A stretch of 64,000 nt of DNA from assembly GCF_029873635.1 (NCBI RefSeq), contig NC_080423.1, positions 96,681,025 to 96,745,024 of the forward strand, in the 5' to 3' direction. How positions within the stretch are numbered: position 1 is the stretch's first letter; each line of letters starts with the position of its first letter. Position numbers and translations under genes: made by a program. The stretch comes from Malania oleifera (taxonomy: Eukaryota; Streptophyta; Magnoliopsida; Santalales; Ximeniaceae). Under the pieces are notes generated by a model. The model did not search any database. It saw only the letters and a list, made by a program, of their open reading frames with translations, and had not been told where the DNA came from. Below, one piece after another: positions 8,087-64,000 of this stretch.

Positions 8087-9330
8087 ATGGCATAAAATGA
8101 GAAGAGTACATAATTAAGGGGGAGCATTTATCGTTCATGGTTATATAAATTAAAATGCTCTCATATTCTTATATCTTTTATGTCTTTATGCCTATATGTG
8201 TATAACATTGCAGCACTATCCATGATTCAATAAATGGTTAAAATTTCTTTAATGGATAGTTTATGGATTTTCCTAGCACGAACTAACATTAAGCTATATT
8301 GAATATCTTGAACTGTTGATTATACTACTAGATGGCAGATGCAGTGATGTGCATTACATGCTGGTAGTGGTTTTAGGTTCTCGTGTGCCTCGAGCTGAAT
8401 TAAAAATTCCCTATTTGAAACCTATCAGGTACAGGTTTTATGGGAAAATGTCCGATTTACAGATGGCATGCTGCCAAATTTTTGTTAGAATTTTTCCAAG
8501 TAAAACCTTGTCTAAAGATGATTATAATAAAATGAAAGTTAAAATATTTTTGAAAGGATGAATAAAAATCAATTGAATAATTAAATTTTATTATTGCATA
8601 ATCATCGAGAATAGTTAGATGAGCTTAACTCCATCCCTAGGAAAAGAGGTTAATGGATTCATATGCATCAATTCACATTTTTTGAATATTGAGGCTCTTC
8701 AAAAATCCCTGATCATCATATCTAGTGCTTAAAGGTCTATGAATAGATATGAATTGTTCTAGAGTATGAGTACTAGTTCATGCCATAATATATTTTCTAA
8801 GATGCATCTGTGGCCTATATGGATGACCATACTAATCATAATATAGTTGATAAAACATCAGTATGGTTGGGTTAAAGGATTTAAAATGAATGGCATATAT
8901 TGTAGGCATAATGAAATAATCATCTATCTAGCATAAGCAGTTTATTGTATCTAACCTAGGATTCCAAACAATAGGGGAAGCATCTAAAATTAAAATATTC
9001 ATCTTATTATGCTCTCAAACACTTTTAGCATAGATCTATTCTGGATCAAGTGTGGCTTGTGCTTAAATGAAATGAAATTTGTAAAAATCTTAAATTGATA
9101 TATATTGTTTTGCCACATATGTTTTTTTTTTTTTGTCTTGTGATCATTGCTTTAAATTGTCTAACATTCTTAGGATCATTGTGGTTGTGTTTTTCTGGTT
9201 ATATTATAAGTATGTGCTTAATTGACAAACCGGAAAAATGTTGCTTGCTTGTTTTAAATTAAAGTTTCTTTTTCAGCAAGCACCCCTAGTACTTCTTGAA
9301 AACATCAAAAGGGGGATATATATTTATTAT

Positions 9331-16795: not shown

Positions 16796-17869
16796 TTATG
16801 TGGCTGACTCCACTAAATTCTCAATCCTAAAGTCTAAAGAGGAGTTTTTGGGGTTTGTTTCAGGTAACCATTTTTCTTTGACTCGCCAAACCTGTTTAAG
16901 CTTCACACCTTTCCTTTGAAATGGACAATCAAATTTAATGTGTCCTTTATTTTTACATAATATGCAGGTGGTATGAGCATACGGACCAAAGGAGGTACTA
17001 GCATAGAATTTTGATACTTTAACAAAGTACCTCATGTATAGGTTCTTTCTTCTCCTATTTTCAATTCCATTGTAACTTATACCTTCTTTGTCTAAGGTCA
17101 TCTTTTGAGAACGTAGAAGCTTATCTAAGTTTTCTTTGCCCTTGGTAAGTGTATGGATGATCTTAGCTTGGTCCTTAATTTTTCTTTCTAGGCTTTGAGT
17201 CTTTGAATCTTTTGAGTTCTTTAAGCCTTTGCAAACAGCTTGTAATTTTACAAATTCATCGGTCATTTTGTTTGCTTTACATTCAAGTTCAAAAATTTGA
17301 AAAACTTTTGCATTATCACTCGAAATCTTGGATTTTAACTCTTTCAGCTCTTTTTCCATCATATCATTCTTGTTTTCTAATTTCATGATTTTCAAATCCT
17401 TTTCTTTTTCAACACTAATATTTGATTCTAAATCTTTCAGTGATGCCTCATTTTTGTTTACTAATCTCTTAATTTCTAATTCTTTTTCAACCTTTTCTTT
17501 TTCCCAATAAGTATGAGACTCTCAAAAACTTCTAACTGTTTTGCTAAGTCTTTATTTTCATTTTTCAACATTATTTTCTTTTTAGACATCATTGCTAAAC
17601 TTTTATAAGCCATAACAAATCCATTTTGTAGTTCCTCATTAGTTGGCACGTTATCATTATCAAATTTATCATAGGATTCACTATCGAAATTATTACAATA
17701 TATATCACAAGATTTATCACAATCATTGCATGAATCATTTTGAGAATCATTATGAGAAGTAGAAGGAGTAGAGTGTACCTCTTCATGGACTGATGCAACT
17801 AGGCCATAATTTTCCACTACCTGATCATTTGAGCATGAATCTTCTTAAGTGGCAAACTTCTTTCCTTTT
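16796..17869 (-). pseudogene. gag: Truncated gag of SIRE-like element A
   Basis: The C-terminal part of a SIRE/Maximus-type Gag is spread over two frames (17817-17476, then 17395-16796), so at least one frameshift is present. Similarity extends upstream through an in-frame stop to the LTR B boundary at 17869. An Asp/Asn/Ser-rich segment is followed by a long charged coiled coil and one zinc knuckle, CILCKNKGHIKFDC (CX2CX4HX4C), then a basic tail with KQVW. The N-terminal capsid-like portion is missing because LTR B abuts it. Such proteins package element RNA; this copy is dead. Confidence 0.85.
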
Positions 17870-19941: not shown

Positions 19942-22900
19942 TGATGACAAGTACTAGCCTACTTCCCCCCTTTTGGCAATAGCAAAAAGAGCCTAGATAA
20001 AAATTTAAGTGTATATAGGCAAATAAGAGGAAAATGTCTTTCATATACAAGATATGGTTTGGGAAAATTTTAAGAAAATTCGGCAGCATGCCGTTTGAAA
20101 GTAGAGCATTTTCCAAAAGAATATCTGTACAAAAATGACCTGATTGAGTTCAAATGTACAATTTATCCTTGATAAACAACTCAAACAGACCAGTATAATC
20201 AAAACAGAAAACATAACTATAACTACCAATATACAAGAGATATAACTCATAAAGTATAAAGCATTTAAGCACACAAACAATATAACTGGTCATTTAAATG
20301 AGTGAAATGACATGAAAACACGGCTAGACCGTAAATATGCACAAACCATTGCAATTAAAACATATCATAAGACCCGTGAAAGATTTGAGTTAAAAACACA
20401 CAGCATATGATACTAAATAGTAGGTTTGAGCATAAAAACGATCTAACTAGTTCACATGCATTTTTATGTGAAGTTATCAAACTAGTTATGCAATTTTTTT
20501 TTTAAAACTTATATGTATATAATAATAATGAGGCAAGAGGAAAAGTTTTAATTTTGAAATTAGTTCTTGCCATAAAGTATTAAAATAAATACATATGTAT
20601 ATAAATATAAACATATATCCCCCTTTGATATTTGCAAAAGGTACTGGGGGTGCTTGTTGAAAAGAAAACTTTAATTTAAAACAAGCAAACATAAATTTTT
20701 TGGTTTGTCAATGAAGCAAATACTACAATATAACCAGAAAACCACAACCATAATGATCCTAAAAAAAATTTAACAATCACATGTAAGATCATATGGCAAA
20801 TCAAATGGCTGTGGCAAATTGACATATTTCAGATTATGATTTTCAATAAAACATTTCATTCAATCACATGCCACACATGATTTTTAAAAAAAAAAAAAAA
20901 AGATCTAAGCAAAACATATTGGAGAACATAACAGAATGGGATTTAACTTTAGATGCTCCCCCTATCGATTTGAATTCATGCTTAGATACAATAAGCTGCT
21001 TATACTAGATAGAAAATTATTTTATTATGCCTAGTAGTATAAGCCATCATTTTGAAACTTTTAAACCAACCATACTGATTATTAATCAACTATATTTATC
21101 CTTATCAATATAATTATCCCTATAGACCATAGATGCATCAGAGAATATATATTAAGGCATGTCATGTAGTTCATGACGCAAGAACATTCCATATCAAATC
21201 ATAGAACTTCAAGTGCAGTATATAATGTTCAAGGATATCATAAGAGCCTCAATATTTCAGTAGACAAAAGTGATGCATATGGGTCATTTATACGCGATGG
21301 ATCTGAGCCTTCCCAAACGTTTGATGATTATGCTAGGATGAAGTTTAATATTATCAGTTTTCACTCATCCTTTCAAAAATATTTTAACATTAATTTTATC
21401 ATAATCACCTATGTACAGGGTTCTATTTTGGAAAAAAAAATTTCAAAAAATCGGCAGCATGTCATCTATAAATTGGACATTTTCCCATAAAACTTGTACC
21501 TGATAGGTTCAATCAAGCAATTTATAATTTAGTTCAAGGAACACGAGAACCTATATCCACTACCAGCATGTAATACACATCAACTGCATCCGCCATACAG
21601 GAGGCTTTCAATACAAGCATGCAATCCAGTAGTATAAACAACTCAAGATATTCAATATAGCCCAATAGAAGTTCATGCTAGAAACTATCCATCAAAGAAA
21701 TTTTAATCATTTATGAATCATGGATAGTGCGGCAATGTTGTACACATATATAAGCATAAGGCATAATCGATACAAGGATATGATAACATTTTAATCGATA
21801 TAGATATGAAGAATAAACACTCCCCCTGAGTTATGCACACAACCAAATCATGCCTTTTCTATTTTTCAAATTTTTTAGCCAAGTGTTTTAAGATTTTTAG
21901 TTATTATATCTTGGCAGTAGATGCATAGGCTTTAAAGGACCAAAGAGTCACAATCAATTTTCCTTCAATGAATAAAGCCTATAACTACCTCTTTTCTTAT
22001 GATCTTCAAAATGTGAGAGGCACAAGTTCAAATGGCATTAAACTTTAAGAATCGTGCATAGGTTTCTTAAAACTTTACATTTTCATATATGTTGAAACCT
22101 AAACCAATCATGTTAGCCATTTAACTTAATTCACGAAGATGAAGCTCTAAAGATTTTGACTTAAATTTTGAGAGCTTGTGAAAGGAGTTTGAGTAAATAC
22201 TCTTTGAAAATTAAATCACTAATGGGTACAGAAGAGTATTTAGGATAGGCAGGACATTTTTCCAGGATAAGAAGTCTAAAGACATTGTCCTAACTGTTTT
22301 GGCAAAGAGCACTAAAGAGTATATGAATTTTGACTGTAACTCTTTGGTGATTGGAAAGTATCGTTTTAAGTAAGATCACTATTTTTGGAGCAAGGATACG
22401 AACCAATGAGAGGATGGATCTTTACCTAATGTGATCGTGGTATGGTAAAGATTTCCTATGAAGGAGAAAGCTTCTATATAAATCAAAATTAAAAAATTTT
22501 TACATTTAAAGCTCAAAGGGATTTTATTATTACAATTCGATGAACAATTTGAATCCCTCCCAGGCTACCTCTAATTTGATTGAGAATGATGATTTTTAAT
22601 AAGCACACAATAGATATGAAATTTTGATAAACAGTGCTTATACCAAGAGTGATGACACCAACTTGTTCAAGACTTTTAAGTTCAAGGATAGGTTTAGGAT
22701 TATGCTATATAGTGTGAGATGGATTCCCTAAATCACAAGCTTGTGCAATGGACAATATATGCTTAATTTAAGAATTGTACATTCAAGTATTGATTAAGCA
22801 TTTGGAATTATTTACCAAGCAAGAAAGCCTTGTCCATTTGAAAGTGGATTTCACTCAAATATGCTATAGCCGATGTTTTCATATTTTATCCAATTATTGT

Positions 22901-24660: not shown

Positions 24661-25458
24661 CTAACCGTGAACTTCAAAGACCTCAACTATATCGAGAAGA
24701 GATCGGAAGTGCTCCGCTTCGGGGTTCTCAACACAGTCGTCCTCTACAACATTTACCAAGCATGCTTCAAGAGGGTCTTCACAAGAGAAAGCATCCAAGT
24801 GTTCCCGCAGAATAACATCAATGCTATTAGCTTCAAACACATCACCATCATCCCTAACTTGCTTCATGACATTAAAAATGTTATGTTCAGCAGTCATGTT
24901 CCCAAATGAGATTTTCATCAAACCATTCCTGCATTGGATGTTAGAATTTCTCGTAGTAAGGAATGGTCTACCAAGGATAATTGGGATATGGGAATTTTTG
25001 GTCACCACTTGTTGAGTATCCAGTACCACAAAATCAACAGGGTAAAAGAATTAATCCACTTGAACTAAAACATCCTCCACGACTCCTTTAGGAATTCTAA
25101 TTATTATATCTGCCAGTTCTAAAGCCATCTTTGCTGGCTTCAACTCTCCCAACCCAAGTTGTTCATACACAGAGTAGGGGAGAAGATTAACACTCGCCCC
25201 CAAATTAAGCAAGGCACGCTCGAATTTGAATTCCCCTGTCACTATGGAAATGATCAGGTTCCCAGGGTCATTGTATTTGGGAGGTGTAGTTGCATTCAGA
25301 ATTGAGCTCACTTGTTCAGCCAAAAGGACTTTGCTATGCACATTATGCTTACACTTCACAGTGCATAGATCCTTTAAAAATTTAGCATATGCAGGCACTT
25401 GCTTTATGGTATCAAGTAAAGGTATGTTTACCTTCACTTGTTGGAACAATTCAAGCAT
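24661..25458 (-). pseudogene. Aspartic protease part of an Athila/Tat-type Ty3/gypsy element
   Basis: Two frames (25458-25051 and 25029-24661) cover a retropepsin-like domain. The active-site loop reads LNLGASVNLLP where the family normally has DLGAS, so the catalytic Asp appears replaced by Asn. Downstream are the flap region with RIPKGVVEDVLVQVD and the conserved ILGRPFL segment followed by CRNG. Sequence continues to about 24600 and is then lost. The frame break between the two parts and the active-site change show a dead copy. Confidence 0.82.
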
Positions 25459-25479
25459 TTTAGCATTACATCTTCCCTT

Positions 25480-27548
25480 TTGAAGAGCCTTGAGTCTTTG
25501 TGGGTACAGGATGACTATTGGATCTTTTGCAACAACATTCTCACCCTCAATCTCTTAGGGCTCTTGCGTCACCTCATTACTCTTAGATTCATGAATAGGC
25601 TCTTTGAAAACATTGCTTGAAAAGCCTTCATCATTTCTTTTTGAAATCTCTTTTTGCGGAATTTTTCTTTCAACTTTCTTACCACTTCTAAGGGTAATGG
25701 ATTGAGCATGCTCCATAGTCACCTCAGAGTCACTAGTACTCGCAATACTATGTTGACCCACTGGATTAGCTTGGGGTTGAGATGGAAATTTACCTTTTTC
25801 TTATTGAAGTACCCCAACAACGATGTTCAACTTAGTAATTTAAGCTTTCATGTCCCCAATAGATTAAGTGATTTGAGAAATTGATTGACTCGTTTGGGCT
25901 ATGAACTGTTGCATTTGATCCTCTAGACTTCTTTTATGAGGGGGTTGGTATGGTGGAACATGTTGTTGCCGTGGAGGGGCATATGCTTGAGGATGATTTT
26001 GAGCATACCCCCGAGAACCTTGGCTTTGATGAAATTGGGTTCCTTGCCCTTGAAAATTTTGTGGGGCATGGTGATTGAAACTTTGAGTAGGAAATGAAGG
26101 ATTAGCCACCTCTTGATTCCTCCAACTAAAGTTAGGGTGATTTGACCCCCCTTTGTTGTAAGTTTCAAAGTATGGATTGTTGAAGAGCCTTTTGAATTGA
26201 TTCAAAGAATTCACACTTGCCTGACCACTAATCACTTCTTTTAGGGAGGGAATTGTCGGACACTCACTAGTGGAGTGTTCTTGGGTCTCACAAATTGCAC
26301 AAACCTTTTCCAATCTAGGTCCAGTGGTAACCTTTTTCATTTGCAAAACCTCCATTTGCGTTGTGTGGTTTGCAATCTTAACTAACATATCGTCCTTTTC
26401 TTTGATTGGTACATCCCTCCGCCACCCTGAATACCAAGGTGCCTCAATGTTCCAACGGATTGAGAAGTGCCCCAAGTTTGGGCTCGTTCCGCAAAAACAT
26501 CAAAGTAATCTAATGCATCCTTGGGTGATTTGTTTAAAAACTCGCCATTGCACATCAAGTCTATATACTGGTGATTCTTAGGTCAAAGCCCTTGCATGAA
26601 AAAGTTCACAATTTGCCAAGTATCTAGACCATGATGTGGAATGGTTTGTAAAAGCTCCTTGAAGCATTCCCACACTTGATGAAATTCTTCATTAGGTTTT
26701 TCAGAAAAATTTTGAATTTGTTAGGTCAAATCAATGGTTTTTTGTGTAGGAAAGAACTTCTTCAAGAAGTTTCTTTGCATCTCTTCCCAAAATGTAATAG
26801 AATGAGGTTTAAGGGAATATAACCATGACTTAGCTTTATCCTTTAAAGAAAAAGGGATAAGCTTAAGTTTAACCATATCTTCAGGGACAACGGGGTTAGT
26901 AAGAGTTGAACAAACCTCTTCAAATTCCTTCAGATGTAAATAAGGGGACTCTGAATCCATCCCATATAATGTGGGCACCATCTTAATCATTTCAGGTTTC
27001 AACACAATGTGGCGAGCTTGCATTGGTAAACGAATACAAGAGGGCTTAATAGACCTTGGAGGATTGAAATAATCTCCTAATGTTCTTGCATGTTGAATGG
27101 CGGGAACATTAGGGACATTTTGTTAATTTGGGGCATATTAAAAGTTTTGAAAATTTTGAAATTGTTGTGCCCCCATTCCTTCTTGGTCTTGCATATTGCG
27201 TTGATTTCCAAAGAAAGGCAGTTGCCCCACTTGACCTTGGTGAAAGGGTTGGTTGTTGTAACCCCCTTGATTAGCTTGAGCGAATAAAGGGTTGGCTTCT
27301 CCATATTAGGGTGGAGCATTCCTAAGAGAATGAATTGGGCCTCCATTTCCATCCCTCTCATGTGGCAGTTCTTGGTTATTTTCGGGTTCCAACGCCATTG
27401 GTCTTCTAGAGGATGAGGGTCCTCTTTGGAAATTTATGGATGGAGATGATTCGATGGGCTCTTCTGAGAATTCTAAGTGACGTTGAACTAATCTAGAAGG
27501 CCACTCCTTAACTAGCCTATTAGTTCCGTCATGAACCCAACTCGACAT
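25480..27548 (-). pseudogene. gag: Gag of the Athila/Tat-type element
   Basis: Fragments in several frames, all minus: an N-terminal segment (27548-27306), a linker (27361-27077), the retrotransposon Gag core (27023-26721, with HLKEFEEVCSTL and SITFWEEMQRNFLKKFFP), and a C-terminal segment (26475-25864) with a zinc knuckle CAICETQEHSTSEC (CX2CX4HX4C), then NHPNFSWRNQ and a Gln/Pro-rich stretch. This order is typical of Athila/Tat Gag. Multiple stops and frameshifts make it non-functional. It precedes the protease on the same strand. Confidence 0.85.
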
Positions 27549-34772: not shown

Positions 34773-34872
34773 NNNNNNNNNNNNNNNNNNNNNNNNNNNN
34801 NNNNNNNNNNNNNNNNNNNNNNNNNNNNNNNNNNNNNNNNNNNNNNNNNNNNNNNNNNNNNNNNNNNNNNNN
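34773..34872. other. Assembly gap, 100 N
   Basis: Exactly 100 undetermined bases. The round length suggests a placeholder of unknown true size, so the sequences on either side need not be adjacent. Confidence 0.99.
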
Positions 34873-46284: not shown

Positions 46285-46397
46285 ACGGGGGCACATACCA
46301 TTATATACAGAGTTTTTTCTCATTTTATAATTAAGAAGAAATAAAATATAAAATAATACTCTAATTAGGAAATTTTTTCCCAAACTAATGCTCACGT

Positions 46398-46643
46398 AAT
46401 CTCGCAACTTAATGCTGCGAGATTTAAAAGCGAAGCCAATGAGGAGCTGACACGTGGCAGCGTGCAGAGAAAATCTCGCAGCTTCATGCTACGAGATTTA
46501 AAAGCGAAGCCAATGAGGAGCTTATGCGTGGCAGCGTGCAGAGAAAATCTCGCAGCTTCATACTGTAAGATTTAAAGACACAGACAAACATGGTGGTGAC
46601 ACGTGATGGTGGAAAAATCTCGCAGGTTAGTCCTGCGAGATTT
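46398..46643. repeat. Left-end array of four palindromes, 70-74 bp apart
   Basis: Palindromes at 46398-46425, 46471-46499, 46545-46573 and 46615-46643 have arms AAATCTCGCAG and CTGCGAGATTT around a 5-7-nt loop; the last has perfect 12-bp arms. Spacers contain AAGCGAAGCCAATGAGGAG and CACGTGGCAGCGTGCAGAG, with an ACGTG core. A fifth, weaker copy is at 46822-46850. Confidence 0.88.
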
Positions 46644-47030
46644 GCGCTATTACCCTTCTTTGCAAATTTAAATTGAAATAATAAACATTCCCTTTTATTA
46701 AATTTAATCATAACTTTCCCTTAAAACTATAATTTAAACTTAAATTTTAAATTTTAAATTGTAAATATATAATTTTAAAAAAAAATTACCTAAAAAAAAT
46801 TATTGATTATAAATAATGGGAAAATCTTGCAGGTTAGTCCTGTGAGATTTGCGGCTCTATTTACTCCCTTCTTTGCAAATTTAAATTTAAATAATAAACA
46901 TTCCCTTTTAATAAATTTAATCATAACTTTCCCTTAAAAATATAATTTAAACTTAAATTTTAATTTTTAAATTGAAAATATATAATTTTTAAAAAAAAAT
47001 TTACATAAACGAAATGATTGATTATAAATA
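46612..47030. repeat. Tandem duplication of about 206 bp inside the MULE left end
   Basis: 46612-46815 (palindrome plus AT-rich stretch with CTTCTTTGCAAATTTAAAT and TAATCATAACTTTCCCTTAA) is repeated at 46818-47030 with minor changes, including the palindrome with C-to-T differences in both arms. Confidence 0.85.
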
Positions 47031-48905
47031 AGTATTTTGTCATAAAAATTTGGATAAAATCTAAAAAAATATATCAAAATATGATTCTAACCCCTGAATT
47101 TACAAAAAATACTACAAAATTTCGTATAATTGAATTTTATTGACGAAATGAATATTTTGTTAGTTAACTATTAAATGCATGTGGAATAATAAAATTTGTC
47201 CTTAATAAAATGATATTTTAAAACTCGTGGATTAGAGATCGAAAAAAAATTTCGAATTTAATGCTTTGATGCTTTGTGCCAACTAATTCTTTAAGTATGA
47301 CAAAAATAATTTGTATTATTTCAAAATTATCTAAAATTATAATTAGAAGAAATAAATTTTTCAATACGTTATAAAAATGTCTAATAATTATAATGCTGCA
47401 AAATGTTTATTGGATGTAATATTTAAAATTAACAATTAAACATTTTGCAAGACAAAGTTAAATTTATTATTTAAATTTAAATTTAAATTTGTAAAAAGGG
47501 AAAGTTATAACTAAATTTAAATTATAACTTTAAAAAATTAAATTTTAATTAAATTTTATCTAAAGAAATAAATAACAAAACAAAAAAGTTTTAAGTAAGA
47601 TTGAAGCTCTGTAGAGCACATGCAAAATTAATGGGAAAGAGATAATGAAATTTGATCTGTGAGTATCGTGAGTTGACAAAAGCTAATCATGTAAGGAGTG
47701 TGACTATTTCTAACACAAGCTTAATCAACTTGAAAACAAGTATGACGAACTCAGTTAGCAGCACTAAGACTCTAATTTACATATATAATTATAATTATTA
47801 TATTACATGCATATAGTCTCTCTAAGAAGTGTATGAAAGATAATAGCAGCATTAATACCGCTTCGTACGTCTTAATTTTTTTGTTTTTACTCTTTTTTAT
47901 TACATTTTGACTATCCGCATACTAAACCAATTATTTTGACCCATCCTTTTGGTGTTTGAAAGTAGGATTTGGGTCAAATTGGATTATTGTTAGAATGCTT
48001 TTTTGTCTTAGTCACCCATTCATATTAAAATAATTAAATTTTTAAAAAATTGAGTATAATTAAAAAACAAAAATAATAATTATCTCTACAATTCCTTTGA
48101 CAAAAGGCATGTCTATTGCTAAATAAAAATATATGAAATATTCAAAACACAGAATATATAGTTCAATTTGTCAGGTTGCGCTTCAAGTTAATAATAAGCT
48201 GCACTGTGAGAAAGGAGGAAGAAGGCAGGGATATTTCATGAGAACGAGATTTATTATTATTTTCTTTCAAGTTCAAAAATTGGACCTCTCTCGCCTTGAC
48301 GCATGTGTGTAAAAATGAAAGTACAATATTATTTATATAAAATTAAAAGATAATAAAAAAAATGTAACATTATTTGCGTGTGGAAACAAATATTTTTAAT
48401 TTTTCAAAGAATTGTAAAAATATCAAATTCATTTTTTATGTTCTAAATTTATATAAAAAATTTAAAATATATTTTTATTTTATATATACTTTAAGACAAA
48501 TTGACTAGGAGTTTAATGGAGAGAACATATATTAAGTGCTCCCTAAAATTTTCGGTGCATGTAGTATATGGCGGTGAAGGGAGGTTAACGTGTAAATGTT
48601 TAGAGTGCTGAAACACATTTACATCTGACGACGCACATAAATGCATGCAGACATACAAATTTTAGCAATACGAATTTTGCAGTAAAAGACAATTCAATTT
48701 AAAGAATTAACTTAACTAGACATGCAAATTTAGACGATACGAATTATATGTCATTTTTTAGATTTGGCAGTATTGAATTCTTTAGAGATACGAATTATTA
48801 AATGATATATAGAAAAGAATAAAAAAAATAATCAATTATATACAAATGAAATCAAAACAATCAATGATATACATACAAATAAAATGCAATTAAAGTAATG
48901 CTAAA
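47031..48905. other. AT-rich MULE interior, no gene
   Basis: This is the region downstream of the PMD gene (minus-strand sense), between its stop and the left-end repeats. No coding sequence or repeat family is recognised. Confidence 0.55.
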
Positions 48906-51204
48906 CTACTCCGTGCCGCAGCGAGGTCGTCTCCGGGGTCGTGGTGGCTGCCGTCTGCATCTACCCTCTCCCTGCTCGTCAGCATCATCAGGTGTCCTGA
49001 CCCGTCGTGCTGGATGTGAATCCTCTCCCCCAAGAGGTGCTGCATCATCATCATCAGCCATACGGAGCGCACACGGTGATAAATGATACGATGTCTAGAG
49101 ACGAGAACGAGGCGGCCTAGGGGGTGCATCGACCTCCACCCCATCGAAAAGATCGTCTAATAAAAATGACATGGATGGGGTAGCAGCAGAGTCGGATGGG
49201 GCATCAATCGGTATGCTCGATGGTCCGGCAATATGAGCTACAATGGAAGGCGCATAAGGTGCTGACGGGCCGAACAAGTACTCAGCTTGTACAACTGGTG
49301 GGGAGGACATGGGAGTCCCTGGATGACTAGAGGAGGCATGTCGTCCTCCTCGTACTGGAGCTGGTCGACCTCCTTGTGCTGGTACATCAGGTCGACCTCC
49401 TCGTTCTGGGATCCGTCGACCGTCCTCGTGGACGAGGTCCAGTGCAGTACTCATCAATCGGTGGATCGCAAAATCCTATGAGATCTGGTCTGCCTCAATG
49501 ACTATGTCAGCCTGCAGGATATGAACATATTTTATTAACGCATTGAAATTGGAACACATATATAATAAAATGAGTTGTGGCATTAATCTTCTTACGAGGC
49601 TCAAATATACAGCTGCGGTCCTATCGACGAAGCGGCGTGTGATAAACCTATACCAAGTGAAGTATGGGTCATCTAGACGCATCGGACTGTGCTCCGCCAC
49701 TCCTCGTACAATGTAGTCTCGTCGATGCTCCCACGCAGTGACGAATATCGCGTGTGTACTCGACCAGTCTGTGACCCCTCGACCGCGCCCATCCATGCCG
49801 TGGAGATCGTTCCCAATAATATCTACCCCCGAAGTCATAAATGGGGCGAGAATGACCTGTCGAAACCCGAACTGTCGCATGACTCGATCGGGGAGATACC
49901 ACTCAATAATATGAAAGTATATGAGTGGCACTCGCGCTACCCACAGGTCCCTCCTGTCTGCATAGGCAGGCGGCATGTCGGCTAAAATCTCATCCGTGTA
50001 GGGCATCCATATAAACTACAATTAGACAAAACAAAAAGTTAAGCGGACTATACACAACTGAAAGAAAGAAAGAAATACTTTCATGTGCTATACTTTAACT
50101 GATTTATACCTCATGCTCCCGGTGCATGTCCAACTCGAACCTATACCAGGGCAATGTGTGAAGCGCAACCATCGATGCCCTCAAGTCATCCCTCCATCTG
50201 TATAAGATGAAATGTAAGTTCTCAAATGCAAAACTACTACATATTACGAATTAGTATTCGTAATAGTTATTGAGTGAATGAGAAGGGATAGATAAAATTT
50301 GTACTAACCGATATGCAAGTGGGAGAGGATCAACCGGACGACCGTCCTGGCCCCTCTCAATCTGCAGGAAACCTCGCCGCGTAGGCGCGAATGAAGGAAA
50401 TCTCTCCCAAACCCAAACCTGGAGTAAGCGAAGGGGGCCCACAATTTGTGTCTTCGAGTGGTGCGCGGCGCGACACATCTCCCTGTACAACCACGCCAAA
50501 GTGGCAGACCCCCAACTGTACGAGTAACACGCTCCGAAGTCCTCAAGAAGTGGAAGGAACATAAGATGCGCATAACTATCGGAAACATCCAAGAACATCA
50601 CCCCACAAATCAAACGCAACAAGTGGGCTCGTGCGTGGCATGCTATCGTCTGAACATCTGCATGTGCCGGGAGCTCATGAAACGCATCCCCCTCAAGGAA
50701 CCGCATACAGATGCGTGCACCAACCAACTCGATGTCAGGCGGAACGACGCCTAACAAACGCTCGCGCATAGTACGCAGGGCGAGTCGACCCTGACGGTCT
50801 GTAGGTCCCTCCACTGGTCCGGCCGTGCGACCAGTGACAGCTCGCCCATCAATCGGCAACTCGAACAAAACAGCTACGTCCTGTAATGTGACGGTGGCCT
50901 CGCTATGAGGTAGGTTGAACGTGTGCATCTTGGGTCTCCATCGCTCTACCAATGATGTGACAAGATGCCAATCAAGCTGGATATAAGCAATCCGATAAAT
51001 GCCATAAAACCCCGCATCGCGTATCAGCTGGACAATGCGGGGGTCTGCCTCTAACCAACGCTCGGCAAACTGTGTGCCCCCTCGGCAGCACAGGGGCTCC
51101 GTATGCCCATCAGCCCACGCTCGGCTGGCCCTGTGATGATCGCCCATCGTCAAGACCCTCGAATCAGACGGCCCTGGATCAATCCTGGAAATGCATCGTT
51201 GCAT
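48906..51204 (-). pseudogene. PMD (plant mobile domain, MAIN-like) gene of the MULE, four exons, two in-frame stops
   Basis: Predicted exons (minus): 51204-50309, 50197-50110, 50015-49596 and 49511-48906. All introns are GT-AG and the reading frame is preserved (669 codons plus stop). Exon 1 has PMD hallmarks: DPGPSDSRVLTM, then ERWRPKMHTFNLP, TLQDVAVLFELPIDGR, YSWGSATLAWLY and LLQVWVWERF. Exon 3 begins FIWMPYTDEIL. Exon 4 is a low-complexity Pro/Arg/Ser-rich tail ending RPRRRPRCGTE. TAG stops interrupt exon 4 at 49478-49476 and 49097-49095; reading resumes in the same frame after each. PMD proteins are plant-specific, occur in host MAIN/MAIL genes and in MULE and Ty3/gypsy elements, and include nuclear proteins tied to silencing. 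The start at 51204 is the first ATG of this frame after the transposase stop; an alternative is splicing from the transposase transcript. Confidence 0.85.
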
Positions 51205-51262
51205 CAGAATAGGTATATACAAAAAAAAAATGGTGTGAAATAGTATAAAACTGCATACGACA

Positions 51263-53890
51263 TCAACGAGACGGTCTCGCTGCATCGCCCGAGTGGGTCC
51301 TTCTCGAACACCTTGTGCGATTATGCCCTTCTTGATGACATATACTGCACGTGCTCCTTTTCCTACCTTCCCTAGCGTCCATCTCATTGTGTATACGAGA
51401 GCTCCTTGGGCGACCTTTATGTCGAGCATATGCTGGATTTTCCTATATAGTCGGCAACAAGGATGCTGTCCAGTACGCCTCGTGCATAATCAGTTGAAAA
51501 TCCGCCGCATATGTCGCATAATATTCGGCGGTGCTCCAACAAGGCTCAACGTACTGCATGGCGTTGAGTCGTGTCTCCGCACATGCAACGAGAAGGTGGG
51601 AGCATGGAAAGTGTAAAGCTTGCCACTTCCCACACGAGTAGCCGTGCAAATCCTGAATGCGCAGCGTTTGCACGTTGTTTCCTTTATGAGGTCCCAACTG
51701 CTCAGTTGTGATGCTAAAAGTACCTCTAGACCAGTTGAACGTCGTCACGCGATGTCCGGTCGCCTTCAACTTCCTTCTTTCCATCGCAAGCAATATATGA
51801 GGAGTTAATGCATTTCCTCCTGATATTGCATTACGAGAAGCCTCACGTCGGCTATTGAAATAATGTGCAACGCGATAAAATGTCAGTTGCACAAGGGCAA
51901 TGATTGGGAGGCTACGAGCGCCCTTAAGGACGGCGTTGAAACATTCGACAAGGTTTGTCGTCATATTCCCATACCTTCCGCCCCCGTCGTGGCACTGAAT
52001 CCACATATGAGGAGCGATTTGATCAAAGAACGTCTTCGCAGGTTCCCCACCCTCGTCGAAGATTTTCTCCATCCACATGTTAAACTTTCTGACCTGATGC
52101 TCCCTTCCCGCGCACTCAGCCATTCACTTCAGATTGACACTATGCACTTTCGTGCTGAAGTTGCTTACAATGTGTCGAAGGCAGAATCGGTGGTGCGCAC
52201 GCGGTGGCTGCCAATCGGGATTGTGAGACACTGCAGCGATGATCCCTGGATGCCTATCTGATATAAGGCAAATGTCGTTCCTATCGGTAATGGAACGAAG
52301 ACAACACAGAAACCAATTCCATGTGTCCAAACTTTCCTCTTGCACAATAGCGAATGCAAGGGGAAATATTTGCCTATTTGCATCCGGGCACGTCGCAATA
52401 AAGAGTTTTCCCTTGTACTTACCGTACAAGTGTGTCCCATCTATACATATCACAGGAGGACAGTGGGGAAAACCCTGAATAGATGCTGCGAACGCCCAAA
52501 AGACTGATACAAATGTTACGGTCTGATCGCTGCCTGGTATAGGGTTCCACCTCCACTTGACGACAGTACCAGGATTATAAGTGCACATTGCTTCCATCCA
52601 CCTAGGTAACGTCTGATAAGACTTCTCCCAATCGCCGAATACTTGGGCGATTGCCTTCTGTTTTCCTAACCAAATTTTCTTATATGAGATGGAATAGCCA
52701 AAACGACGATCTATGAATTCTTTCAATGTAGCGATTGAGGTCGACGCATCACCCCTTATCATATTCACAATCTCACTAGCAATAAGGGACGACATGATTT
52801 GGCTATGGTCTTGCGAGAGGAGTTCATTCAAGCATGTGTGCGAACCACCATATTGAGTGATTTCGAAGAATCGATGTTTCTGACGATACATCGCACGCAG
52901 TCTCCAACTGCATTCAGAGTTCTTACACCTAACAACCCATAATAGTGGGGTTGACTGCAGGACGTGGAAGTCATGGTGCGTTCGAGCGTGGTATATTCGC
53001 ACAGCAGCTATCAATTGATCTTTCGACCCGAATAGCATCCCTTGACTCAGTTCTGATGATTCATCCCAACGAGTTATCCGTATAGGAAGCTCGTCACCAT
53101 GGGACAAATATGCAACATCTACATCAATTACACCATACATAGGAGGTTCGACCATGAAATCTGCCGTATACGTGCCATCGTTCAATTGACGGGGGGGTGG
53201 GTCGACATCATCGGGGAACTCATTCGTCCCTTCACCAATTTCCTCCTCGTACGTGTCATCTTGTAAATGAACATTGTTCGTGATGTTCATCCCCACGTCC
53301 AGCGCGTTGTTCGCTATTGCGAACAACAATCCTGGTTGTTCTACTGAAACATCTTCGCAAACACCATGATAATTCGTATGAATAGTAGTTCCTTCGTACG
53401 TCTGCGCCTCGAATGACGATCGTGGACATTCGTTCATATCCACAACAAGCATCCCACCAACATCTGCATCTTCTTCCTCCGCTTCAACCACGTGCTCAAT
53501 AGACGTTCCCGGCTACTCATGTGCGGCAACACCCATCTGAGGAATGAGTTCGACACACAGTCACACAGTCAAATATGTCGTCCCTACGCAGTGTGCATCC
53601 AACACCATGCGCAAACCGTAATCACTAGTTACGGGAACAACCTCATAGAAGATTGTATCATGATGCCCCTTAATCAGGTATCTTGCAGTTAACCGCTATG
53701 CATATTGATTTGGATCAATTTGCAAATACTTGTATATCTTCGTATGCAATTTAGTTAATTTACACCTATAACCAATTCTAATAGGTTGAACTAGCGGAAT
53801 ACTATAACTAATATCAATTTGGACGATTATAATGTTACCCCCCATGTACAACAATACCAGAACCGGAATACTGCTTGAACTTCCTGCCAT
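51263..53890 (-). pseudogene. MULE transposase, single 876-codon frame with five in-frame stops
   Basis: One frame runs from ATG at 53890 (MAGSSSSIPV) to TGA at 51265-51263 with no intron or frameshift. In-frame stops lie at codons 65 (TAG), 110 (TGA), 126 (TAG), 589 (TGA) and 816 (TAG). Order: MuDR-type N-terminal zinc finger (about residues 283-353; CX4C then HXC, ending GGSHTC), MULE DDE core with Asp 484 (VICIDGTHLYG), Asp 545 (LISDRHPG) and Glu 649 (NLVECFNAVL), a SWIM-like segment (CGKWQALHFPCSH, about 743-755) whose first Cys reads Tyr, a basic linker, and a C-terminal zinc knuckle CSICHQEGHNRTRC. It would bind element ends and cut and paste DNA in the nucleus. The stops imply it is inactive unless read through. 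Confidence 0.9.
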
Positions 53891-56278
53891 CTAGATTGAC
53901 GCCCGGTAAATATAAAAGACCTACGCAAAACAATAATTTTATGTATAAGTCGTATGCTAAGTGAATAGTGAACAAAAATTATTTTTCAATACGTTCATGT
54001 GCATGCAATATTCTCTAAATGTTTCACTTGTCACTTTGAAAATATTCTTGCATGCAATTCTGACTTCTCTACGAAAAGTCGTATCGAAATTTGGACAGCA
54101 TGCCAAGTGTAATTTGATCATTTACCCATTTTTACAATGACCCTTAAACGTTTGCAGACAATATAATAATATAGTTGAAGCATGCGAGAACCTATGATAT
54201 CTACCAGCATGCAATTCACATCACTGCATCAGCCATGCAAGAGGCATTTAAATTCGTGCTTAGAAAACAAATACTTTTAGATATAACATATAATATCTTT
54301 GAAATTTTTTTGTAAGCAAGCCTTCAATTAATGCGTGTGTCACAAATATTTATTTAATATTTCATAAAAATTAATTAACATTTTATATTTATATTATATA
54401 ATAAAATTAATTATATTTATATATATACATCTCAAATATAGATTCAAAAGCTCCAAAACATCATGTGCCATTGAGTGTATACTAAATAATTAACTTATAA
54501 TTCCTTCAACTTATATGCATGCGACTATCATATTCACATTGCTTCCAAATATTAATAAAAAATTATTTTTAATATATCATTTGTCTCTAATGAACTCATC
54601 TTGTCACTAATTTAGAAAGTTATTTTTTATACATAAGAAAGAAAATGAAATTCATTTTTCTAATTTTTTCTTAAACAAAATTTGGGAAGAGTGAGAATCC
54701 ACACATCAGTTATGATTCAAGTTCAAGTTATGTTGAATTTTATCTAAATTTTAACAAATTTATATATAAAGTTTCAAATTTGTGTCATTAATTCACAAAT
54801 TTTGATAAGTCAATATAGAGAAGTGATGCGAAAAGCTTAATGAAGATGATACTACAATGATATATATAAATAATTATCTCCCAAAGGCAACTAGTTAACC
54901 ACATACCTTTTGTCATTTATATAGTTTGTATTATCAAATTCCAAACACAAACAAATCATAGTCATGTGTAGTAGATCGAATTGTACTCTAACAAAAAAAT
55001 TTGTATGATTTTGGCATGGAGCACACTCAATATGAGTATATAAGACTAATGTTGAACAAGTTAAATTAACTTAAATATAACCTTTTAACTTTATTATTAA
55101 GCATTTATAGATCAACAAACTATAACTTATTTGTTACTATAAGATAATTATACAATAGCAAATTTTATAATACTTTTGAAATCCCGAGGAAGATCAATGA
55201 AATTTTTAAAAATTTTAAAAAATCTTCACTGAAGTGCAAATGGCTTGATTTCAATATATAGTTTTTGGATTCCAAATTTGGAGGGCTTCTCATTGGGATG
55301 TAAAAATTATATTTTGGAAGATTGAAATTAAATTAGAGAAGTAATAAGAAGATAGTCAATGAAATTTTGAATTGTTTTGACCAAAATTTTAACCATAAAA
55401 TTACGTATCCATATATATATTCATAGTGGTTCATAGTAAATTAAATTCAAGTTAAGTTCAGCAAGTTTAAATTTAGTTCTAATTATTTTGTACATGATAA
55501 TGTTACTCGTTTGATTACGAACCACATGTAAAAATGGATGGATCATACTACATTCAAAGAGAAGTTATTTTGTATATTATTACCATAAAAAAGAACTATG
55601 GTATTGAGAAGGGGGGGTAAAAGAAAAGGGGAAGCACTTGAATTATTGAATATGATTATTAATAAGTTTGTAGAATGACCATACTTTAAAAGAAAAAAAA
55701 AAAAGGTTTTTAAAATTGATCAAGATAACCAAACTATATTATAATATTCTTCAATGGAACCACACATCCGAGGGTAGTATTGTTGCCCTTGTTACGAATT
55801 AGGAAGGACTTGTAATACCCATTAGAAATGGCATTGTGCATTCCAAAATAACCTTATCAAAGTGAGTTGAGACCCACAAACAACACAAAAAATACAAAGA
55901 AACAAATGTCCTAAACACTATTTCTTCTTTGATATTAATGAATATGTAAATTTAAAATATTGAAGATAAAATTTGAAGCATAAATATTTGATCAATATAC
56001 TTTTTTTTTATTTCAAATATTCAGATTATATTATTAAAAATTTACATGATTATGCGGAGTATATACAAATACTATTAAAGACATAAACATTAATGAAATT
56101 ATTAATTAAAAAAACTAACCTTCCTCTAGATGCAGCAACGAACCCAAATAGTCGGAACGCAGCGTGTGATATCAAACCAACTCAAAACATAAATAATTAT
56201 CTCATGTAAATCTCAATAAGTTAAATAAAATATTCACGTTTTTTTTCTAAATATTAAATAACATACCCCATCTTCGGC
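53891..56278. other. MULE 5' non-coding region with a small SIRE-like fragment
   Basis: This lies between the promoter region and the transposase start. It is AT-rich and has no coding sequence. About 54090-54262 (with GCGAGAACCTATGATATC and CTACCAGCATGCAATTCACA) matches element B near 21450-21610, so a fragment of that repeat family is embedded here. Confidence 0.55.
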
Positions 56279-56365
56279 CCTTAAATAGCCTCGCCTCGCC
56301 TTCGCCTGAGCCCGAACGGTCACTTGCACCTCGAACGGTCACCTGCCAACGCAACGGTCCTCTGC
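56279..56365 (-). promoter_or_regulatory. MULE promoter region: GTGACCGTTCG repeats plus TATA-like box
   Basis: On the minus strand three or four copies of (A)GGTGACCGTTCG (within 56365-56308) precede CTATTTAAGGG (56288-56279) and then GGGGTATGT. The related element at 62851 onwards has the same order: GTGACC repeats, TTATAAAAGGG and GGGGTATGT. Conservation between two copies supports a promoter driving the transposase, though its start codon is 2.4 kb away. Confidence 0.6.
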
Positions 56366-56452
56366 AAGCTCGAAGGTTTGCAACTTTTCTCCCTTTCTCC
56401 TCTGCAATATTGTGTTCTGAGAAGCCTCGGGGAGGAATTCAGCAAACGAAGC

Positions 56453-56753
56453 AAATCTCGCAGAACCATCCTGCGAGATTTACCACGTGTCACCACGCAG
56501 ATGGATGTCAGGCACAAATCTCGCAGCTTCGTCCTGCGATATTTTCACCACGCGTCACGACCAGATCGATGCCTCGTAATCTCGCAACCACGCGTCGCCT
56601 CTCCGTTCGATGGCTTCTTAAATCTCGCATCTTGGAGCTGTGAGATTTCTTCAAGCGTCGTCACGCGTCACCTGCCCCCTGTTTCTCTCTTTGCCACGCG
56701 TCAAAGGCAGAGTAGCCATCAGTTTAAATCTCACAGTATGAAGCTGCGAGATT
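56453..56753. repeat. Right-end array of palindromes of the MULE
   Basis: Palindromes at 56453-56481 (perfect 11-bp arms AAATCTCGCAG and CTGCGAGATTT), 56516-56544, 56620-56648 and 56726-56753, with a lone left arm at about 56576-56586. Spacers contain CACGTGTC and CACGCGTC motifs. Spacing is less regular than at the left end. Confidence 0.88.
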
Positions 56754-56989
56754 ACGTGAGCATTATTTTGGGAAAAAAACTCATTATATACAACACCTAA
56801 GTTTTTCCCCAAAACAACATGGAAATAAAATATTAGTCATATTTCTCGCAAATTGGACTTAAAATTTTCGAGAACCAAATGTGACCTAATTAAGTCCCAA
56901 TCCCAAAAGATGATTTTTTTTAACAAGTCTTTCAAACCTTTATCAAGTAGAGCAGCAAGCCGAAGGCACAATTGTCTAATGATAAATCA

Positions 56990-62471: not shown

Positions 62472-62881
62472 CTCTCTGTCACTCTCTCTCTCTCTAGATT
62501 CAAATTTTGAATTTGATTCACAGAAGAACGCTCTCACGGAAAGCAAAAGAGAGAGATCGGGAATTTAAGTCCAAGGAGACGAGAGTGATTTCAGATAATT
62601 AGGTATCTGCCCCGCTATCTCTGCATATTCTTACTTCTCTCCTCATTTCCCCAGCTTTCTCTGCACGCTGCTCTCTTTGTTTACTTTTTTTTTTTTTTAA
62701 ATATATCCCATTGGATTTGACATAGTTACACTTGCAATTGTTTAGTTAAATTAAACTTGTTTTATTAATATATACAATTAATAATGGAGTCATTTAGAGT
62801 TTTTTCCCATTTTATTATTTTATAATAATATATCAAATAATATTTCGTTTGGGAAAAATTTTCCTAATTTGATGTTTACGT

Positions 62882-63038
62882 AATCTCACTGCTTAGTCCA
62901 ACAAGATTTAAAGGGTAAGGCAAGTCGAGTGTTGACGCATGGTAAGGCAAATCTCACTGGATCAGGTAGCGAGATTTTTCCGAAAAATGCTCGGTGCGTG
63001 ACACGTGGCAAATCTCGCTACTTGATCCAACGAGATTT
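62882..63038. repeat. Three palindromes at the end of the second MULE
   Basis: At 62882-62910, 62949-62977 and 63010-63038, with arms AAATCTCRC and GCGAGATTT-like and inner bases different from the first element (core around TTGATCC). Spacing is 61-67 bp. The spacer again carries CACGTGGC. Confidence 0.75.
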
Positions 63039-63148
63039 GCTCGGGGCCCTTCTACTCCTCCTTTCTCCTTCACTTCTCTCTTGAACACAGAATAGAGCAG
63101 CAAAAAGCAGAGAGTTGCAAAGAGGAGGACGGTAGCAACAGCAAGCTA

Positions 63149-63240
63149 GCAGGTGACCGTTTGGCATAGCAAGTGACCATTCGGCGTAACAGGTGACCAT
63201 TCGGGAACTCGCAGGTGATCGTTGGAGTAAGTTATAAAAG
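63149..63240 (+). promoter_or_regulatory. Promoter region of the second MULE
   Basis: Four AGGTGACCRTTYGG-like repeats (63150-63223, about 20-25 bp apart) precede TATAAAAG at 63233-63240 and GGGGTATGT. The layout is the same as at 56365-56279 on the other strand. Confidence 0.6.
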
Positions 63241-64000
63241 GGGAGAAATGGGGTATGTATTTTTCTTACCCTAATTCTATTTTGGTTTCATGGATCATTC
63301 AAGATTAATTTGAATTGGATTTGAAGATTTGTTATTTTAGATTCATAATTTAGTACTGTGCTTTCAATTTTTTGATTGGAAGCTGCATCTGGAACCCCTC
63401 ATATGAGGTTAGGGTTTCATTTCATTATTTTTATTTTATCGAATTAAAATTGTTCTATATTGAATGTGTAAATATCTGTAATTATTATATATATTTATAT
63501 ATATATATATATGTAATTGTTATTAAAAAAAAATTAAAGTATGTTGTATAGTTGATGATTCAAAATCTAAAGTATGTTATAAATGTTATTAAAAAAAAAA
63601 ATTAAAGTACGTTGTAATTAACATATATTGTATTTTATACGGTATTTTGTATGTGTAATTGTTATATATTTAATGTGTTCATTTGCTGTTATTTAATGTG
63701 AGGTTAACTTGGTTAATTTGTTGTTAATTAATATGAGGTTGGGGTTGAATTCCTTATTTGTAATTGAATTTGAAAATTACATGCATTAGTAAGATATCTA
63801 AAGAAAATTGAGTTGGTTTTAAAAATTAAGGGTGTGTTCAAAAATTGATTTGATTTTGTGTAGTGGATTTGGCCAAAAAAATATGCATCATAATATATAA
63901 TTTTTAACTAAAAAATAACAATATGAATTATATTAACTATAAAAATAATAATTAAAACTGGTGAAATGTTATTAAAAAATTTCACAATCATATATTAATT

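Follow-up and report, generated by a model that had tools for sequence, protein, structure and literature searches.

We analysed a 64,000-nucleotide stretch of the Malania oleifera genome (Santalales, Ximeniaceae; NCBI RefSeq assembly GCF_029873635.1, contig NC_080423.1, positions 96,681,025 to 96,745,024 of the forward strand; hereafter the window, whose own numbering is used for all positions). The window holds a Mutator-like element (MULE) of 10,473 bp (46310–56782) that carries a transposase gene and a PMD gene, both on the minus strand. Both termini of the element read inward as GAGTTTTTT, a terminus common to other genomic copies, and an exact 10-bp target-site duplication, ATTATATACA, lies directly outside them (46300–46309 and 56783–56792); identical 10-mers make up 2.6 × 10−6 of the pairs between the two flanks and 1.7 × 10−5 of those across the window. 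The left terminal inverted repeat (TIR; 46310–46645, plus strand, 336 bp) opens with GAGTTTTTT, holds four 27-bp palindromes and pairs with the right TIR (56451–56782, minus strand, 332 bp, outer end GAGTTTTTTTCCC), and the long TIRs and a duplication within 8–11 bp are those of a MULE. The end of a second, related element, with the same terminus (GAGTTTTTTCCC), occupies 62797–64000 and continues beyond the window edge. Because this second element and other copies share about 60 bp of the left TIR that are missing from the right one, the right TIR is the shortened member of the pair, and an insertion of 60 bp into the left TIR was rejected. A first, sequence-only reading of this DNA had rightly placed both genes between matching inverted ends, with outer borders (46285 and 56805) that lie 25 and 23 bp from the true termini; a direct repeat at 46338/56822 was dropped as an alternative target duplication because it does not adjoin the shared termini.

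The transposase gene (53890–51263; ATG at 53890, TGA at 51265–51263) comprises 875 codons plus a stop and contains the MULE transposase domain PF10551 (70 bits, cut-off 27.6, E = 2.4 × 10−19). Exactly 58 bp downstream on the same strand, as that reading had described, lies the four-exon PMD gene (51204–48906; 669 codons plus a stop), whose exon 1 (51204–50309, starting at the ATG), exon 2 (50197–50110), exon 3 (50015–49596) and exon 4 (49511–48906, mostly a near-neutral tail, natural end at 48908–48906) are separated by three introns, all with GT-AG borders; its spliced protein matches PF10536 over the whole profile (positions 1–347 of 347; 232.7 bits, cut-off 34.9, E = 8.9 × 10−69). The sequence-only reading did not say that this copy is inactivated: in-frame stops interrupt the transposase at codons 65, 110, 126, 589 and 816 (five stops, starting at 53698, 53563, 53515, 52126 and 51445) and the PMD gene at codons 480 and 607 (TAG at 49478–49476 and 49097–49095), the latter two positions both being occupied by residues in the Malania protein P0020. 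Because both PMD stops lie 3′ of the Pfam domain (residues 65–451 of 479), this copy could still yield a product in which the domain is complete. A profile scan found no SWIM zinc finger in the window transposase, in which the first Cys of the finger is replaced by Tyr; as 56 of 60 related transposases do possess the finger, we read its loss as decay. CpG observed/expected ratios, examined for deamination as a source of the stops, showed no depletion across the two genes (1.04 and 0.96). A search of PDB sequences with the transposase returned no credible match. One Malania gene model (P0005) spans the end of a transposase into the start of a PMD gene, its first part being 85.7% identical to the window transposase over 42 residues. 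Upstream of the transposase, a noncoding stretch (53891–56259, minus strand) is perhaps a leader intron, since similarity to the second element breaks off close to 56266, where a GTATG sequence resembles a splice donor; the stretch is preceded by a putative promoter or leader (56260–56330, minus strand), in which TATTTAAG and then GGGGTATGT align with TATAAAAGG...GGGGTATGT of the second element.

The window copy is an inactivated member of a multi-copy family of TIR-bearing MULEs in M. oleifera. A genome search with PF10536, in which 111 of 2,388 candidates were scored, gave at least 207 matches, and 23 of the 30 best-scoring loci, which were cut out, have transposase sequence immediately 5′ of PMD in the same orientation (in one of these, L014, it is just 29% alike). 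PMD-MULEs are thus numerous in this one eudicot genome, in contrast to a survey that describes eudicot PMDs as mainly genic PMD-C (PMC7156037). The other seven loci are two host MAIL2-type genes (L011 and L013), three divergent PMD loci (L008–L010), a locus with a transposase match on the opposite strand (L012) and a family copy with no transposase within reach (L035); the three divergent loci share a stretch of about 64 kb of one chromosome with no transposase nearby, possibly as a local host gene cluster. At the locus of L060 and L061, the PMD start is followed, some 3 to 6.5 kb downstream and in the same orientation, by another copy of the transposase, which suggests tandem or nested elements.

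Of the 30 loci, 11 were read in 16-kb stretches; by alignment score, both ends are present in nine of these, and two (L022 and L024) lack the 5′ end. All nine two-ended copies carry transposase sequence and then PMD between the same ends, in support of one element carrying both genes; seven have a near full-length transposase and two (L020 and L030) a fragment. Their target duplications are exact at 10–11 bp in five and at 9 bp in a sixth (L037), scoring 8.5 to 10.5 in these six copies against 0 of 72 crossed flank pairs with a score of 6 or more; L025 has an 8-bp duplication with one mismatch, no better than this control, and none was found at the ends of L020 and L028. The possibility that the ends in the window belong to two different elements was rejected, since other copies show the same ends, order and duplications. 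Among nine aligned copies, the window included, the final stop codon is shared by nine (transposase) and eight (PMD), internal stops mostly differ from copy to copy, the transposase frame is open in one and both frames are open in none. The order extends to other plants: seven of 120 listed transposase relatives are annotated as single proteins with both domains (five from Heliosperma and one each from Vitis and Actinidia), and the transposase part precedes PMD in all seven, as in a Vitis protein with SWIM and PMD domains (P0069). No PMD relatives were found in viral contigs. In tea, 175 PHAS loci are reported at PMD genes (PMC10673657), which is consistent with host targeting of PMD genes.

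The noncoding DNA of the element repeats a 27-bp palindrome, AATCTCGCAG-N7-CTGCGAGATT, of which nine units lie in or beside the TIRs: five on the left (46398–46849; starts at 46398, 46472, 46546, 46616 and 46823) and four on the right (56454–56753; starts at 56454, 56517, 56621 and 56727), with 0 to 2 arm mismatches in 20 positions. The loop is 7 bases long; no match was obtained when it was set to 8 bases. A loose scan of the window returned 13 places (these nine, three in the second element end and one stray), compared with 0 to 4 in each of 20 block shuffles, and 5.8 kb of noncoding element DNA hold 12 instances of AATCTCGCA, the remaining 51.7 kb (second element left out) none. Genome-wide, there are 1,290 exact palindromes, against none for a control pattern read backwards. 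Every one of the nine two-ended copies has palindromes at both ends, three to five units per end and varying in number; on the side of the missing 5′ end, L022 and L024 hold none and one, in that order. As single strands, three of the element's units would form hairpins of −7.5 to −12.2 kcal/mol, and a unit of the second element a weaker one (−4.4 kcal/mol). The second element end has three diverged palindromes (at 62882, 62950 and 63011) and a similar promoter-like stretch, and a variant, AATCTCGCTA...TAGCGAGATT, stands at position 49 of L060, upstream of a copy of a second subfamily. Matches to the 27-bp palindrome in viral (one stretch) and bacterial (six stretches) sequence collections, one place each, were taken as chance.

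Substitution patterns show that both genes have been maintained. In 36 pairs of nine copies (L025, with many frame-breaking insertions in PMD, was kept in), the ratio of non-synonymous to synonymous substitution (dN/dS) had a median of 0.375 for the transposase (range 0.30–0.77), 0.44 for the PMD core (0.24–0.88) and 0.835 for the PMD tail (0.48–1.75), the last being near neutral. Against the second subfamily (eight loci including L015, which is intermediate; L014 and L035, with no transposase part, were left out), median dN and dS were 0.098 and 0.948 for the transposase part and 0.219 and 1.329 for PMD exon 1, giving ratios of about 0.10 and 0.16 that are rough because dS is near or above 1 and so close to saturation. 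Both dS and dN are higher for PMD than for the transposase in this comparison. The PMD gene is thus under purifying selection, alongside the transposase and over a long time.

We placed the window PMD among its relatives in an unrooted tree of 46 sequences that includes no labelled PMD-A, PMD-B or MAIL3 members, has many long terminal branches and is weakly supported at 13 of its 43 inner branches. Fifteen host MAIN, MAIL1 and MAIL2 proteins, including Malania MAIL2, form one group (100/100) apart from the window PMD, which instead groups with the PMD relative P0001 (100/100) inside a set of 12 (98/95) that holds two transposase-bearing Vitis proteins. The host genes form one tight clade with 26–34% identity to P0001; those at L011 and L013 have no transposase nearby, and L011 encodes a stretch that is 100% identical to Malania MAIN-LIKE 2 over 216 residues. 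The proposal in the sequence-only reading that host PMD genes may stem from such elements finds no support here, because the tree separates the host group and Ikeda et al. (2017, PMC5418596) infer from their tree the opposite direction, in which MULEs took up PMD-C from the host. The direction is not settled by our tree either, because forcing host genes and the window lineage into one group gave a p-AU of 0.112.

A possible function for the element PMD comes from structure prediction: its predicted fold matches VANC21 (structure 9lnj), suggesting that PMD contacts DNA. Weak matches to DUF1985 (PF09331), the domain of VANC, were found in 34 of 60 PMD relatives. P0001 gave no DUF1985 match among the 60 scanned, which weighs somewhat against a VANC-like PMD; none of ten PMD relatives scanned singly exceeded the DUF1985 cut-off (best 20.2 versus 35.1 bits); the VANC21 sequence had no significant match to PMD profiles; and a structure model of MAIN alone was poor and did not match VANC21. 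Sequence searches of PDB yielded no relatives of P0001 at E = 1 and four matches to the PMD profile (E = 0.43 to 4.1) that are unrelated, and a Foldseek viral library gave no match at E = 0.001.

VANC proteins are described as binding short motifs that are tandemly repeated in the noncoding DNA of their own elements, with loss of silent marks (PMC5735166, PMC10398659). The Malania family encodes two proteins, the transposase and a PMD protein that forms part of the element's working equipment. By analogy with VANC, we suggest that PMD, folding as predicted like VANC21, would bind a short motif that recurs in noncoding parts of its own element, with the 27-bp palindromes at the two ends as the most likely target; this binding may lift silencing from family members, which might explain how such elements withstand it. 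The same predicted fold, the selection on the gene, its faster change than that of the transposase and the repeated end motif together make a VANC-like anti-silencing factor the most likely role, and we give slightly better than even odds (about 0.53) to the window element being an inactivated copy of a two-gene MULE whose PMD works in this way. The earlier reading, that the element pairs mobilisation with a protein that may counter or redirect host silencing, stands as regards the two genes in one element; its second half gains support from the predicted fold, the weak DUF1985 matches and the purifying selection, and may prove correct.

We weighed this VANC-like role against other accounts of the same genes. 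The palindromes could be binding sites of the transposase, with PMD as a helper of transposition that has no anti-silencing action: in its favour are the palindromes at both ends of all nine two-ended copies, the purifying selection on both genes and the known presence of promoters and transposase sites within long MULE TIRs (PMC3310237). Against this account stand the fold predicted for PMD, which it would share with an anti-silencing protein that binds DNA, and the 113 of 120 listed transposase relatives that are annotated without PMD, although a separate neighbouring gene would escape such annotation; on balance we think it unlikely. A somewhat less probable alternative again is that PMD acts as a decoy or partner of host MAIN, MAIL1 or PP7L, disturbing the silencing complex through protein contact and not by binding element DNA. 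MAIN and MAIL1 are reported as interaction partners of one another and of PP7L that silence transposable elements (PMC7156037, PMC8616336), and the element PMD is homologous to the host proteins across the whole domain, yet its distance from MAIN and MAIL2 (the low identity given above and a branch length near 2 changes per column), together with the DNA contact suggested by the VANC21 match, speaks against it.

An account in which PMD is a functionless passenger, captured as in Pack-MULEs, draws on the known capture of genes by MULEs and on the two stops in the window copy. Selection, however, has kept PMD together with the transposase, which argues that it is no passenger: in Pack-MULEs, sequence taken from the host is not selected for a role in the element, whereas the PMD core here has dN/dS below 1 within and between subfamilies (the tail being near neutral), transposase sequence directly precedes PMD at 23 of the 30 loci, and the order recurs in other plants. 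We regard this account as close to refuted.

Several known systems come close to this family. VANDAL21 of Arabidopsis (PMC5735166, PMC10398659) is likewise a MULE that encodes a second protein, VANC21, whose fold PMD is predicted to share, and that repeats a motif in its noncoding DNA. Differences are that VANDALs are termed non-TIR MULEs (PMC13317346) whereas the Malania element has TIRs, that VANC matches DUF1985 above the cut-off and PMD does not, that the VANC21 motif is given as YAGTATTAY and the candidate in Malania is the AATCTCGCAG palindrome, and that anti-silencing has been demonstrated for VANC whereas for PMD it would follow from likeness. The original description of the PMD domain, by Babu et al. 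(2006; cited in PMC5418596), came from a MULE of rice, and PMD-C MULEs of several grasses and Amborella also combine transposase and PMD in one element, there as fusion proteins (PMC5418596), in contrast to the separate four-exon gene and the long, palindrome-bearing TIRs of this eudicot element. That MULE-borne PMDs act against silencing has already been offered as speculation in the same paper (PMC5418596). Host MAIN, MAIL1 and MAIL2 share the full-length Pfam domain with the element PMD, and host MAIN/MAIL proteins are described as acting in silencing (PMC7156037, PMC5418596). MuDR-type MULEs of maize also have long TIRs, duplications of about 9 bp and two genes, although their second gene, mudrB, is not a PMD gene. 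As far as the open-access literature shows, the likeness of PMD to VANC, which may already be noted elsewhere in print, and a well-delimited eudicot PMD-MULE family with terminal palindromes are new.

The molecular role of PMD proteins has been described as unknown (PMC5418596, PMC8616336). A shared VANC fold, if true, would give a concrete answer on how they act, namely by binding DNA; silencing by MAIN/MAIL1 and anti-silencing by VANC would then be connected, and a candidate target sequence named. More tentatively, at a little short of an even chance, the VANC fold may be a sequence-specific DNA-binding module with which VANDALs and PMD-MULEs work against silencing and plants, through MAIN/MAIL1, bring it about, with the palindromes as the element's address label; host and transposon would then oppose each other with two faces of one DNA-binding fold.

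No Rfam families were found in the window, and it contains one assembly gap (100 N at 34773–34872). About 95 bp of the element's noncoding part (54159–54253) resemble 21518–21612 (79.6%) and, inverted, 8332–8383 (84.6% over 52 bp), perhaps as a small dispersed repeat. On the minus strand, frames at 16796–17521 and 25051–26499 resemble gag and protease pieces of long terminal repeat retrotransposons, their translations having been judged by eye.
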